Positions 2,412 to 34,320 of a stretch of 34,737 nt of DNA are shown one piece after another; the first letter of the stretch is position 1, and each line of letters starts with the position of its first letter. This DNA comes from a virus. The stretch covers positions 1 to 34,737 of the IMG/VR virus record IMGVR_UViG_3300046170_000080; one strand, written 5' to 3'. The translations under genes were made by a program, and so were the position numbers. A model generated the notes under the pieces. It ran no database searches and was not told where the DNA came from. It saw only the letters and a program-made list of their open reading frames with translations.

Positions 2412-2449
2412 TTGCTTTTTGTTCGTTTTTATGATATACTATTAGTATA
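2412..2449 (+). promoter_or_regulatory. rightward sigma70 promoter with palindromic operator on the -10
   Basis: The -35 TTGCTT (2412-2417) and -10 TATACT (2435-2440) are separated by 17 bases. The -10 is the left arm of the near-perfect palindrome TATACTATTAGTATA (2435-2449). The 19-base block ATGATATACTATTAGTATA recurs exactly at a second promoter (7905-7923), so the palindrome is probably a shared regulatory site. It should drive the rightward block beginning at 2577. Confidence 0.75.
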
Positions 2450-3312: not shown

Positions 3313-3665
3313 TGCTATATACTAAAAACAAAAACTTAGCGGACACCAGTACGCAAACAATTGTAACTATTCCTAATGGGTACGTTGCACACTGGAACAT
3401 GGCATTTGTAGCTAACCTAGATAACTCTACTAACAGTGTTACGTTGTTTGTAGACAAGCCTAGTCCAATAGAAGATATATATATTTATAACGGCACTAAT
3501 ATATCGTCAAAAGAAAACCTATTGATTGACGGTAATGCAGTGTTTGTTTTACAGCCGGGGGACATTATTAAAGCATCTAGTGGTAGTGCAGGGAACGTAG
3601 AAGTAGTAGTTACGTTTGATTTGTTAGAAGCACCAGCAGTGTTTAATAATTTTAATGGATCTTAA
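3312..3665 (+). CDS. hypothetical virion protein (117 aa)
   Basis: The start ATG at 3312 overlaps the preceding TAA by one base (TAATG). The protein is rich in beta-prone residues with a regular VTIP...VTLFVD...VVVTFDLL pattern, typical of small head decoration or tail accessory domains, but no family is recognised. It overlaps the large terminase start by 11 bases. A structural role is inferred only from position and beta-rich composition. Confidence 0.6.
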   Translation: MLYTKNKNLADTSTQTIVTIPNGYVAHWNMAFVANLDNSTNSVTLFVDKPSPIEDIYIYNGTNISSKENLLIDGNAVFVLQPGDIIKASSGSAGNVEVVVTFDLLEAPAVFNNFNGS

Positions 3666-4905
3666 TATAGAACTACTGCCTTGGCAGCAAGATGTTTGGG
3701 CAGACGAAACACGGTTTAAAATAGTAGCTGCTGGGCGACGTACAGGTAAGTCTAGGTTAGCAGCATGGATGTTAATTGTTAACGCACTACAGGCGGACAG
3801 AGGCCATGTATTTTACGTCGCACCTACTCAAGGACAAGCCAGAGACATTATGTGGCAAACCCTCCTCGAACTGGGGAATCCTGTTATTGCTGGTAGTCAC
3901 ATTAATAATTTGCAAATCAAGCTGGTCAACGGAGCTACCATCAGCCTCAAAGGTGCTGACAGACCAGAGACAATGCGAGGTGTCTCACTCAAGTTTTTAG
4001 TGCTGGATGAGTACGCAGACATGAAGCCTGATGTATTCGAGCAGATCCTGAGACCTGCATTGGCTGACCAAAAGGGCTGTGCGATGTTCATTGGTACACC
4101 GATGGGCCGCAACCATTTCTATGAACTATACAAATATGCAGAGTTAGATGATGATCCGACTTACAAGGCTTGGCACTTTACTTCTTACGATAATCCTATT
4201 CTTGACCCGGCTGAAATTGATATTGCAAAGCGCTCTATGTCTTCTTATGCGTTTCGTCAGGAATTTATGGCGTCGTTTGAAGCCCGTGGTTCAGAGATGT
4301 TTAAGGAAGACTGGGTACGCTTTAGTCAGGATGAGCCGGAAATAGGTGATTACTACATTGCAGTTGACTTGGCGGGATTTGAAGAAGTTAACAAGAAGAG
4401 AACTAAGAACACCAAACTTGACGACACAGCGATTGCCGTGGTTAAGGTCAGCGAGCATGGTTGGTTTGTTGACAATATCATACATGGCAGATGGTCACTT
4501 GACGAAACAGCAGCTAAGATATTTCAGGCCGTTAGAGATTATCGTCCCGTGTCGGTGGGAATCGAAAGAGGTATTGCAAAGCAAGCCGTTATGTCGCCTC
4601 TGATGGACCTACAGAAACGTTACGGAAACTTCTTTAGAGTTGAAGAGTTAACACACGGTAACAAGAAGAAGACCGACAGGGTAATGTGGGCGTTGCAGGG
4701 ACGCTTTGAAAATGGGTACATTACTCTGAACAAGGGAGAGTGGAATAGTCGTTTTCTAGACCAGCTCTTTCAGTTTCCTGACCCTTTGACCCATGATGAC
4801 TTGGTGGACGCACTAGCGTACATTGACCAATTGGCTAACGTAGCGTATGACTATGACTACGAAATAGAAGACCATGATATTTTAGACGTGGTAGCAGGAT
4901 ACTAA
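3655..4905 (+). CDS. terL: terminase large subunit
   Basis: The 416-residue packaging motor pumps DNA into proheads and cuts it. The N-terminal ATPase shows Walker A GRRTGKSR near residues 28-35 and Walker B LVLDEYAD near 115-122. The C-terminal nuclease shows the acidic residues of an RNase H-like fold: Asp in YYIAVDLAGF (about 228), Glu in VGIERG (about 301) and the DD in THDDLVDALAY (about 381). Length is close to other compact podovirus terminases. It overlaps the preceding gene and is followed after one base by the portal gene, its docking partner. Confidence 0.93.
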   Translation: MDLNIELLPWQQDVWADETRFKIVAAGRRTGKSRLAAWMLIVNALQADRGHVFYVAPTQGQARDIMWQTLLELGNPVIAGSHINNLQIKLVNGATISLKGADRPETMRGVSLKFLVLDEYADMKPDVFEQILRPALADQKGCAMFIGTPMGRNHFYELYKYAELDDDPTYKAWHFTSYDNPILDPAEIDIAKRSMSSYAFRQEFMASFEARGSEMFKEDWVRFSQDEPEIGDYYIAVDLAGFEEVNKKRTKNTKLDDTAIAVVKVSEHGWFVDNIIHGRWSLDETAAKIFQAVRDYRPVSVGIERGIAKQAVMSPLMDLQKRYGNFFRVEELTHGNKKKTDRVMWALQGRFENGYITLNKGEWNSRFLDQLFQFPDPLTHDDLVDALAYIDQLANVAYDYDYEIEDHDILDVVAGY

Positions 4906-4906
4906 T

Positions 4907-6941
4907 ATGGCAGAATTTTACGAACAAGATCCACTTTTAGTTGAAGAAACGATTGAAGACTGGGTCATAACCAAATGTGAGGACTGGCGTGACTATTACG
5001 AGTCAAATTATGAAGGAAGGTTTGAAGAGTATTATAGACTCTGGCGTGGTATATGGGATCCTGCAGACAGTGACCGTAAGTCTGAGCGTTCCCGTATTAT
5101 TTCTCCTGCACTTCAGCAAGCTGTCGAGTCTAATGTTGCTGAGTTAGAAGAAGCTACGTTTGGTCGTGGTAAGTGGTTTGATGTTAGTGACAACTTAGGT
5201 GATACGCAAAAGGAAGATGTACTATTCCTGCGTAACAAACTAACTGAAGACTTTGAAAACTGCATGGTACGTAAGTCTGTTGCAGAGTGTCTTATCAATG
5301 CTGCTGTATTTGGTACAGGTGTTGGTGAGATTGTTATTGAAGAAATGAAAGAGATGACGCCCGGTACGCAACCTGTTATGGGTGGTGATTTGCAAGCAGT
5401 AGGTGTAAATGTTACTGACCGTGTTGTTGTTAAGCTTAAGCCTGTACTACCTCAGAACTTCCTGATTGATCCTGTAGCTACGTCTGTAGATGACGCTATG
5501 GGTGTGGCTGTAGATGAGTTTGTAAGCAAGCACCATGTAGAACTGTTACAAGAACAAGGTGTTTATCGTGACGTGTATGTTGGTTCTGCTGCTCCTGACA
5601 CTGACCTTGAGCCTGACCAAGACATAACAATTTACAACGATGACAAGGTTCGTCTTACTAAGTACTATGGTCTAGTGCCACGAGAGCTTCTAGAATCCGC
5701 TCTGAGCGACGATGACGAAGAAGAGGTAGAAGGAGAAGGGGAAGAAGGTTCACGTTACGTAGAGGCCGTTGTAATCATTGCTAACGGTGGTATTTTACTT
5801 AAGGCAGAAGCTAATCCTTACATGATGGAAGACCGTCCTATTGTTGCGTTTCCTTGGGACGTAGTACCCGGACGCTTCTGGGGTCGTGGTGTATGTGAAA
5901 AAGGTTACAATTCACAAAAAGCACTTGACACTGAACTACGCGCTAGAATCGACGCTCTAAGCCTGACTATTCACCCCATGATGGCTATTGATGCTACTCG
6001 TCTACCACGTGGTGCAAAGCCAGAAGTACGGCCCGGTAAGATGATCCTAACCAACGGAGACCCACGTGAAGTACTTCAACCGTTCAACTTTGGTCAAGTT
6101 AGTCAAATCACTTTTGCTCAGGCAGGAGCCTTGCAGCAGATGGTACAACAAGCAACAGGAGCCGTTGACTCAGCAGGAATCGCAGGCTCTGTTAATGGCG
6201 AGAGTACTGCCGCTGGGATTAGTATGTCTCTTGGCGCTATTATTAAACGTCATAAACGCACTCTGATTAACTTCCAACAGTCTTTCTTGATTCCGTTTGT
6301 TAAGAAAGCAGCGTATCGTTACATGCAGTTTGACCCTGAGAACTATCCAGTGGCTGACTACAAGTTTAACGCAAGCAGCACTTTAGGGTATTATTGCAAG
6401 AGAGTACGAAGTAACTCAGCTCGTACAGTTGCTACAGACTATGGGTAAAGACTCACCGTTGTACAACACATTGATTCAGTCTGTTGTTGACAACATGAAC
6501 TTGTCTAACCGTGAAGAACTAGTTGCTGCTTTGTCTCAGGCTTCACAACCTAACCCTCAAGCTCAACAGATGCAACAACAAATACAACAATTGCAGATGC
6601 AGTTCCAGCAGTCTCAGACGCAAGCGTTGTCTGCTCAGGCGCAAGAGTCACAAGCACGAGCTGCTAAGTTGGCTGCTGAAGCTCAGGCTGTACCTATGGA
6701 ACTTGAGATTGACCGTATTAACGCCGTTACTAGAAACCTTAAAGAAGGTGACGCAGAAGATAAAGAGTTTGAGCGACGTATGAAAGTTGCTGATACTCTC
6801 CTTAAAGAAAGACAAATAGAAGGTAAAACCAATGTTAACAGACCACGAACTGAGACTCCTCCTGCAGAGAGTCAACAACGAATTTCAGGGAACTTTCCAA
6901 CGAATAACGGAACTGGAACGCAAGGTGGAGGAGCTGTCTAA
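4907..6941 (+). CDS. portal protein (frame broken at 6386-6388)
   Basis: The first 1.5 kb encodes a typical podovirus portal or head-tail connector, including the region GRGVCEKG...ALDTELRARIDAL. The frame then shifts at the GGG at 6386-6388 and stops at 6448. Dropping one G restores a continuous frame (GIIAREYEVTQLVQLLQTMGK) into the Gln-rich helical C-terminus, giving about 677 residues with an integral codon count and a stop at 6939-6941. The portal forms the dodecameric ring through which DNA enters and leaves. The break is more likely a sequence error than biology because seven similar indels cluster downstream. The final 40 residues of the repaired frame look low-complexity and overlap another open frame (6832-7014), so the true C-terminus is uncertain. 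Confidence 0.85.
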
Positions 6942-7648: not shown

Positions 7649-7889
7649 AGGCGGTCTTAAGAAATGGTTTGACGAAGAATGGGTTGACGTTAAAACTGGC
7701 AAGAAATGTGGTCGTAAGTCTGCTAAAAATAGTAAACGTCCGTACCCTTCCTGTAGACCTAAAGCTGTTGCAGCTAAGATGACTGCAGCAGAAAAAAAGT
7801 CATCAGCTAAACGCAAAACAGGACCAGCTAAAATTAAACACGCAGTCACAGCTTCAGGACGTAGAAGAAAGACTACAAAAAAAGCTTGA
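7641..7889 (+). CDS. DUF5872-like C-terminal half, small basic protein (82 aa)
   Basis: The start ATG at 7641 lies inside the last codons of the previous gene. The product begins GGLKKWFDEEWVDV, then has CGRKSAKNSKRPYPSCRP, with two Cys residues, and ends in a long Lys/Arg tail. The first part resembles the second half of DUF5872. Strong positive charge suggests binding to DNA, possibly inside the head. The 3' end runs into a perfect promoter at 7886. Confidence 0.6.
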   Translation: MAKGGLKKWFDEEWVDVKTGKKCGRKSAKNSKRPYPSCRPKAVAAKMTAAEKKSSAKRKTGPAKIKHAVTASGRRRKTTKKA

Positions 7890-7923
7890 CACCAAACAAA
7901 AAACATGATATACTATTAGTATA
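7886..7923 (+). promoter_or_regulatory. consensus sigma70 promoter with the same palindromic operator
   Basis: TTGACA (7886-7891) and TATACT (7909-7914) are 17 bases apart, a perfect -35 and a 5/6 -10 match. The -10 begins TATACTATTAGTATA (7909-7923), the palindrome also present at the 2435-2449 promoter. The -35 overlaps the 3' end of the preceding gene. It should boost expression of the scaffold and capsid genes. Confidence 0.85.
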
Positions 7924-7945: not shown

Positions 7946-8200
7946 ATGACACCCGAGCTTGAAACATACTTTAACAATTACAATGAATTGTTTAATCACG
8001 AAGGTTTCAAACAACTCGTTACTGAACTTTCCAATAACGCAACACAGTTAGCAGATATACAAACAGTTAAAGATCAGGAAGACTTATACTTTCGTAAAGG
8101 TCAAGTAGCTGCTTTTGCTACTGTTATTAATCTACAAGGTACTATTGAAGCTGCTCGTGATCAAGCTGAAGCAGAAGACGAAGAGCCTATAGATGTTTAA
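7946..8200 (+). CDS. hypothetical protein (84 aa) behind internal promoter
   Basis: ATG at 7946 is 5 bases after AGAGG and about 25 bases after the expected transcription start, so this is the first gene of an internal transcript. The acidic, mostly helical 84-residue product (FKQLVTELSNNATQLADIQ; C-terminal EAEDEEP) is not recognised. Similar short acidic proteins often precede scaffold genes in marine podoviruses. It overlaps the zinc-ribbon gene by 8 bases. Confidence 0.65.
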   Translation: MTPELETYFNNYNELFNHEGFKQLVTELSNNATQLADIQTVKDQEDLYFRKGQVAAFATVINLQGTIEAARDQAEAEDEEPIDV

Positions 8201-8411
8201 GATATATGACTTTCGTTGTACTAACGGACATGTCTTTGAAGATTTTGTAAAGAGTGGTACTACAACCAGTAGGTGCGGTTGCGGTGCTAACGCTACAAAA
8301 ATGGTATCTGCCCCGTCTTTCCACCTTGAAGGTGCTTCCGGAGATTTTCCCGGTAGTCACATGAAGTGGGTTAGGGAACACGAAAAAGCAGGTAAAAAAT
8401 CCTCTCCATAA
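8193..8411 (+). CDS. FmdB-like zinc-ribbon protein (72 aa)
   Basis: The protein has a short zinc-ribbon: YDFRCTNGHVFED (Cys and His knuckle) near residues 5-17 and RCGCGANATKM (CxC knuckle) near 27-37. This matches the FmdB-type putative regulatory zinc-ribbon. A C-terminal LEGASGDFPGSHMKW segment recalls phage relatives of this family. The likely role is metal-dependent binding in the head or regulation; this is not established. It sits between the internal promoter and the scaffold gene. Confidence 0.7.
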   Translation: MFKIYDFRCTNGHVFEDFVKSGTTTSRCGCGANATKMVSAPSFHLEGASGDFPGSHMKWVREHEKAGKKSSP

Positions 8412-8423
8412 TGATTATAATCA
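8412..8423. promoter_or_regulatory. 12-bp perfect palindrome before the scaffold gene
   Basis: TGATTATAATCA is a perfect palindrome located between the zinc-ribbon stop and the scaffold ribosome binding site (GGAG at 8425-8428). It could be an operator or simply AT-rich spacer. Confidence 0.25.
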
Positions 8424-8435
8424 CGGAGTTTAATT

Positions 8436-9236
8436 ATGTCAAGAGCTATGATGCTTGATCCACAACCTGAAGAGGACAATGTGGACGCCATTGAAAACGA
8501 AGTAGATGAGATTCAACAAGAAGAAGAAGTTGAGCAACCTCAAGCCGAAGAACAAAGTTTACCCGATAAGTACCAAGGTAAGTCTTTAGAAGAAGTAGTA
8601 CAGATGCACCAAGAAGCTGAGAAGCTTTTAGGTCGTCAGTCTTCTGAAGTAGGCGAACTTCGTAGGGTAGTTGATGATTATATTTCTAGTCAACAACAAC
8701 CAACAGCACCTCAACAACAACACGTTGAGCCTGAAGACGATATAGACTATTTTACAGATCCTCAAGGTGCAGTCAATCGTGCTATTGAGAATCACCCTAA
8801 GATTAGAGAAGCGCAGCAGTACACTGAGCAGTACAAGAAGCAGTCGTCACTTGCCACCCTTCAAGCTAAACATCCAGATATGCAAGACATTCTTAGTGAC
8901 CCTAAGTTTGCAGAATGGATTAAGGCATCTAAGATTAGGACTCAGTTGTTTGTAGCGGCTGACCAACAGTATGATGCTGACTCTGCTGATGAACTGTTTT
9001 CACTCTGGAAAGAACGTAAGACAGTTGCTCAGCAAACCGCCAATGTTGAAAAACAGGCACGTAAGCAATCACTAAAGGCAGCTAATACAGGCAATGCACG
9101 AGGCAGTGCTGAGGGATCACGTAAGAAGGTATATCGCAGGGCCGACATTATTAAACTAATGAAGAATGACCCTGACCGTTATCAAGCTTTATCAGAAGAA
9201 ATTATGACAGCTTATGCGGAGGGTCGAGTCAAATAA
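8436..9236 (+). CDS. scaffolding protein
   Basis: The 266-residue protein is highly charged and helical: an acidic N-terminus (NEVDEIQQEEEVEQP), a Gln/Pro-rich linker, and a basic C-terminal region (ARKQSLKAANTGNARG...RRADIIKLMKNDPDRY). It sits immediately upstream of the major capsid gene. This is the usual form and place of a podovirus scaffold, which guides coat assembly and then leaves the head. No enzyme motif is visible. GGAG lies 7 bases before the ATG. Confidence 0.8.
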   Translation: MSRAMMLDPQPEEDNVDAIENEVDEIQQEEEVEQPQAEEQSLPDKYQGKSLEEVVQMHQEAEKLLGRQSSEVGELRRVVDDYISSQQQPTAPQQQHVEPEDDIDYFTDPQGAVNRAIENHPKIREAQQYTEQYKKQSSLATLQAKHPDMQDILSDPKFAEWIKASKIRTQLFVAADQQYDADSADELFSLWKERKTVAQQTANVEKQARKQSLKAANTGNARGSAEGSRKKVYRRADIIKLMKNDPDRYQALSEEIMTAYAEGRVK

Positions 9237-34070: not shown

Positions 34071-34157
34071 CTACCGCTCCCTGTCTATTGTCAGCCATGT
34101 CACTATGATGATGCCAGCAAACAGCATCCCGATAAAGTACAGCAAATTAAATTCCAT
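34071..34157 (-). CDS. tiny single-pass membrane protein (28 aa)
   Basis: ATG at 34157 follows AGGAG by about 6 bases. Residues 3-23 are hydrophobic (FNLLYFIGMLFAGIIIVTWL), then TIDRER and a TAG two bases before the next gene. It overlaps the sigma-like gene by 11 bases. One membrane helix with a short charged tail is typical of phage microproteins that act on host membranes; the role is unknown. Confidence 0.55.
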   Translation of the reverse strand: MEFNLLYFIGMLFAGIIIVTWLTIDRER

Positions 34158-34320
34158 CCTTCGCTCCTATGTATTTGTCTAGTTTACCTGTTCGCCTAAG
34201 TTTCGCAATAGCCCTACTCTCGATGCGTTTAACATCTGTTTCGGTTATGCCTAGCACCTGCGCTATCTCTCGTTGCGACATAAGGTAGTCTACTTTCCTG
34301 CCTTCCCTTGTCTTGCTCAT
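34147..34320 (-). CDS. sigma-70 region 4-like small DNA-binding protein (57 aa)
   Basis: A 57-residue frame from ATG at 34320 to TAA at 34149-34147. Residues 14-44 read SQREIAQVLGI, TETDVKRIES, RAIAKLRR: the helix-turn-helix of sigma70 region 4, where the second helix reads the -35 element and the RIES...AIAKLRR part parallels QIEAKALRKLR of RpoD. No regions 2 or 3 are present, so it cannot be a full sigma factor. As the phage lacks an RNA polymerase but has sigma70-type promoters, the protein could redirect host RNA polymerase or act as an activator or anti-sigma mimic. The fold is by pattern only. Confidence 0.65.
   Translation of the reverse strand: MSKTREGRKVDYLMSQREIAQVLGITETDVKRIESRAIAKLRRTGKLDKYIGAKDGI

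Follow-up and report, generated by a model that had tools for sequence, protein, structure and literature searches.

A near-palindrome at two phage promoters probably reflects, for the most part, extended −10 promoter anatomy kept in one narrow lineage

Extended −10 promoters of the σ70 type are recognized by a hexamer close to TATAAT with a TGn motif upstream; TTGACA as the −35 box, 16–18 nt away, is a further criterion. RNA polymerase prefers to start transcription 7 nt below the −10 box, at a purine that follows a pyrimidine (Y−1 R+1) (PMC5730371). Symmetry at or over the −10 box is known from phage operators that overlap this box, and from symmetric −10 elements at which divergent transcripts start in many bacteria (PMC10268837, PMC12825309). 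Literature on the phage group described here, on phage repressors, and on scaffold regulation yielded nothing directly on point.

The window, i.e. the whole stretch of DNA analyzed here, is the 34,737-base sequence of a virus record and represents a small tailed phage. Viral contigs from metagenomes are its close relatives; an annotated phage collection held no near-identical phage, with the best capsid matches below 40% identity. The rightward genes from position 2577 on encode packaging and head proteins. The first of them, coding for an AT-hook protein (2577–2972, + strand), is followed further on by the terminase (3655–4905, +) and portal (4907–6448, +) genes. A second group starts with a gene at 7946–8200 (+), followed by a zinc-ribbon-like gene (8193–8411, +), a scaffold-like gene (8436–9236, +), and the major capsid gene (from 9251, +). 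Leftward genes extend from 24162 to the end of the window and also occupy 24–1464; they include a ribonucleotide reductase and, as judged from the sequences, DNA polymerase and helicase. A 57-amino acid protein resembling σ70 region 4 is encoded at 34147–34320 (−). An origin-like stretch (2087–2192) lies between the leftward genes and the first of the two promoters discussed below (site 1). It comprises three 22-bp direct repeats at 2087–2152 (GTTCTATTATGGAACTGAGTAG and variants) and, on the minus strand, three DnaA boxes that match TTATCCACA exactly (2149, 2161, and 2184; 0.31 expected).

A sequence of 19 letters, ATGATATACTATTAGTATA, is found exactly at 2431–2449 and 7905–7923 (both +), with a chance expectation of 0.02 from dinucleotide shuffles and no third match in the window at up to three mismatches. 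It contains the near-palindrome TATACTATTAGTATA, located at 2435–2449 in site 1, with a second exact copy at 7909–7923 in site 2. This element is a 7-1-7 inverted repeat in which 7/7 pairs are complementary around a central T, and its left arm is the −10 box. The two promoters precede the packaging genes (site 1) and the scaffold/capsid genes (site 2), and their flanks differ. The sequence-only reading, which had described an exactly shared, near-palindromic element with the −10 box as its left arm on two otherwise dissimilar promoters of these gene groups, was thus correct in its description.

From their sequences, both sites look like extended −10 σ70 promoters, each with a hexamer close to TATAAT and TGn upstream, and site 2 appears strong. 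Site 2 (7886–7923, +) is the top-scoring promoter in the window and combines TTGACA (7886–7891), a 17-nt spacer, and TATACT with TG before the −10 box (11/12). Its extended −10 element, TGATATACT, spans 7906–7914, and the right arm of the palindrome, TAGTATA (7917–7923), covers the predicted start at about A7921. At site 1 (2413–2449, +) the same extended −10 element occupies 2432–2440 and the same right arm 2443–2449, with a start predicted at about A2447 by the 7-nt rule. The −35 box of site 1 is weak (TTGCTT, 2413–2418, 3/6 match, 16 nt from TATACT), and this site was not listed by the promoter scan. In the leader (2463–2569) that connects site 1 with the first packaging gene, there is a long inverted repeat, CTCTTTAAAGATTCTT/AAGAGTCTTTAAAGAG, which is retained in several relatives and shows no paired changes among six sequences.

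Because the extended −10 element accounts for 9 of the 19 shared bases and the A directly after the −10 box is nearly invariant in the clade, part of the identity between the two sites is forced. The remaining identity exceeds the clade background: a 16/16 match was found in only 4 of 870 between-phage comparisons of site 1 with site 2, and these four fit crosses between the window and its sister lineage G001.

The right arm was slid against the −10 box and the pairing fraction was recorded for each centre. Control promoters of the form TTGACA-17-TGnTATAATA were taken from other viral contigs (135, near-duplicates removed), and bacterial genomes supplied a further 129. The pairing fraction at centre 8, the one on which the palindrome in the window is centred, is 0.54 in the clade, 0.43 in unrelated phages, and 0.37 in bacteria. 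Centre 8 is the peak of each series, with other centres at ∼0.27–0.44. This dyad centre is generic to extended −10 promoters, with weaker peaks outside the clade. TATA at positions 12–15 is the commonest offset both in the clade (19/44) and in unrelated phages (15/135), and in the bacterial promoters it is level with offset 8 (7/129). Since the 7-nt rule places T−1 and A+1 at positions 12–13, the TATA of the right arm falls on the start, and promoter anatomy accounts for part of the dyad. A complete 6/6 dyad at this centre is rare in the controls (1/135). The dyad is stronger in the clade than in the controls; since common descent links the clade promoters in part, this excess is not completely accounted for.

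Among relatives, orthologues of site 2 were collected upstream of homologues of the 7946–8200 gene in about 60 contigs. Most lineages keep TTGAC(A/T), the 17-nt spacer, and TGnTATA(A/C)T, and the downstream arm varies (CTATAG, CTATAC, CATAA, TATATA, and others). The region upstream of the first packaging gene gives a similar picture or more variation. Within a set of 30 distinct phages obtained at a looser cut-off, identity of both promoters over bases 0–15 (16/16) is confined to the window and G001, whose terminase and capsid are 89% and 64% identical to those of the window. G001 keeps the stretch at both sites although other parts of its two promoters differ. A short contig, G003, holds two exact copies, and G002 and G011 carry the palindrome at site 1; site 2 of G002 (L104) reads TATAATATTAATATA and differs at 3/16 positions. 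G013 has the same replication module as the window (polymerase 90%, helicase 93%, and the gene after site 2 96% identical) and has no copy at either site. A link between the palindrome and the replication module of the window, G001, G002, and G011 was dropped because G013 has the module without the palindrome. For 27 distinct phages in which both promoters are present, the similarity between the two downstream arms of one phage does not exceed that between phages (p = 0.19). The proposed conserved module stood only in part: it is kept at both sites in G001 and twice in G003, and absent from G013. What relatives retain is the −35 box and the extended −10 element, not this right arm, G013 included; this is largely the outcome that the sequence-only reading had named as its refutation. 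Among the 30 distinct phages, the same element does not recur at both promoters of related phages beyond the window and G001, and a shared operator is not supported outside one narrow lineage.

Two further patterns were seen among these relatives. The mosaic phage L212 (G012) is 100% identical to the window in its capsid and 98.6% in its terminase, with a DNA polymerase only 55% identical, and it has different promoter sequences at both sites. In the lineage of L052, L062, L066, L055, and L186, an inverted repeat GTGTAC-N4-GTACAC, or a near form of it, follows the −10 box of the site 2 orthologue and sits at the predicted transcript start.

Together, these comparisons suggest that the palindrome owes most of its symmetry to ordinary promoter anatomy, retained in a single narrow lineage. 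We favor, with a probability of roughly 0.7, two σ70-type extended −10 promoters used by host RNA polymerase, with a palindrome that is mostly the −10 box plus the start-site region. This reading builds on the sharing, its narrow range, and the generic dyad centre, all of which are direct results of computation. Site 1 would drive the packaging unit and site 2 the scaffold/capsid unit, both presumably by means of the host polymerase. The left arm would serve as the −10 box and the right arm as the putative start region (T−1, A+1, then TA); lying one helical turn apart, the two would produce a dyad whose centre is fixed. This symmetry would be a weak general trait of extended −10 promoters that is stronger in the clade of the window. 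The two promoters would have become identical over 19 bp in the ancestor of the window and G001, either because a short promoter module was copied or through convergence. Counting against the favored reading, the sharing between the window and G001 over 16 positions (0–15) exceeds the clade background, and G001 keeps it at both sites despite differences elsewhere in its two promoters. The rarity of 6/6 dyads at this centre among the control promoters and the similar promoter pair of a second lineage, L069, described below, also count against it.

This excess sharing could also be read as a lineage-specific operator, at which a dimeric repressor of phage or host would bind the 7-1-7 repeat over both −10 boxes and keep the late genes off early in infection. 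The symmetric form of the repeat, its placement over the −10 box, its presence as exact copies at both promoters of the window and of G001, and the two copies in G003 argue for such an operator. We nevertheless regard it as unlikely, because the element is absent from G013 despite the same early module, occurs in G002 at site 1 only, and has no third copy near a regulator gene in the window. No compensatory change accompanies it either: pairing-preserving changes at positions 5–11 were not found. Compensatory evolution between bases 0 and 16 (A-T, C-G, G-C, T-A) was rejected, as promoters that are otherwise nearly identical (L003/L026 and L058/L060) differ at base 0 while base 16 stays the same. 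A permutation test on a mixed set gave a weak excess at position 16 (p = 0.007, 21 positions tested), but this signal is not specific, since position 19 reached p = 0.0025 in the same scan. Paired changes thus do not appear to keep the symmetry. The σ70 region-4-like protein, which had been put forward as a possible regulator, was rejected in this role because its presence does not track the palindrome: it has no match in the carriers G002 and G011, and it has matches in G007 and G012, both without an exact copy. Other small proteins may be candidates. Control of both promoters by one regulator, as initially proposed, is not supported, given the unshared arms across the 27 phages and the generic dyad centre. 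In lineage L069, the two promoters have much-alike, nearly palindromic −10 regions of their own (14/16). With such palindromes in other lineages, operator and repressor would have to change together; that a putative phage repressor of the window and G001 reads the palindrome over both late −10 boxes, while L069-type lineages use their own, seems quite improbable to us.

Slightly less likely than the lineage-specific operator is a bidirectional promoter, in which the symmetric −10 box would also start a leftward RNA, as in the bacterial elements cited above. Divergent starts 7–25 bp apart would be expected of such a promoter. At site 1, this RNA would run toward the leftward early genes and the origin-like region, a TTTAAA-16-TATACT can be read leftward at 2471–2444, and no extended −10 promoter for the leftward operon was found between 1450 and 2460; however, the leftward −35 box is weak, a leftward RNA from site 2 would only be antisense to late genes, and the usual 18-bp spacing of starts requires the −10 box alone, not the palindrome.

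Downstream of site 2, the scaffold-like gene (ATG at 8436) has its ribosome-binding site within an RNA hairpin (8404–8428, +), which is conserved and covarying. In 50 distinct clade sequences, the upstream [C/T]TCC arm and the Shine–Dalgarno-like GG[A/G][A/G] were picked by pattern. The four outer-arm pairs are kept in 50/50 (CTCC/GGAG in 29, CTCC/GGGG in 17, TTCC/GGAA in 4) around loops of 4–23 nt, and non-pairing arm combinations, which the pattern allowed, did not occur. As the sequences were chosen for their outer arms, the inner helix provides independent evidence for the hairpin. Both strands of this helix change (one group has UGA/UCA, another CCU/AGG), although much of this change may be one event between the two groups. 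For 33 of the 50 sequences, 96% of cells pair, whereas sliding the partner gives 41–61%. By plain folding energy, the region does not stand out (mean z −0.35), and Rfam gave no match in the window at gathering thresholds. Among the 38 genes of the window with a Shine–Dalgarno-like site, one other has an exact complement upstream of it. The stop codon of the upstream gene falls inside the hairpin in many clade members, which makes translational coupling or autoregulation of the scaffold-like gene candidate roles. A perfect TTGACA-17-TATAAT on the minus strand (8442–8414) was rejected as a promoter; with its −10 box inside the conserved hairpin and its −35 box across the start of the scaffold-like gene, the match probably arose by chance.

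In a phage group that is widespread but has been little described, the promoter pair marks the transcription units for packaging and for scaffold/capsid. It also illustrates that a dyad across the −10 box and the start site can derive largely from promoter anatomy, and palindromes seen by eye in AT-rich phage promoters therefore need a control set before they are labeled operators.

Compared with known systems, the two sites are closest to extended −10 σ70 promoters, with which they share TGn before the −10 box, the 17-nt spacer (site 2), and a pyrimidine–purine step at the expected start 7 nt below the −10 box. They differ from the usual members of this class in the unusually strong TATA around the start, which creates the dyad, and in the poor −35 box of site 1. 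Like phage operators that overlap the −10 box, the window has an inverted repeat over this box at two promoters, whereas its element comes with no cognate regulator found, narrow conservation, and no covariation. With the bidirectional promoters of Warman et al. 2021, as far as these are described in PMC10268837, it shares symmetry at or near the −10 box, but its dyad centre lies 2 nt downstream of the −10 box.
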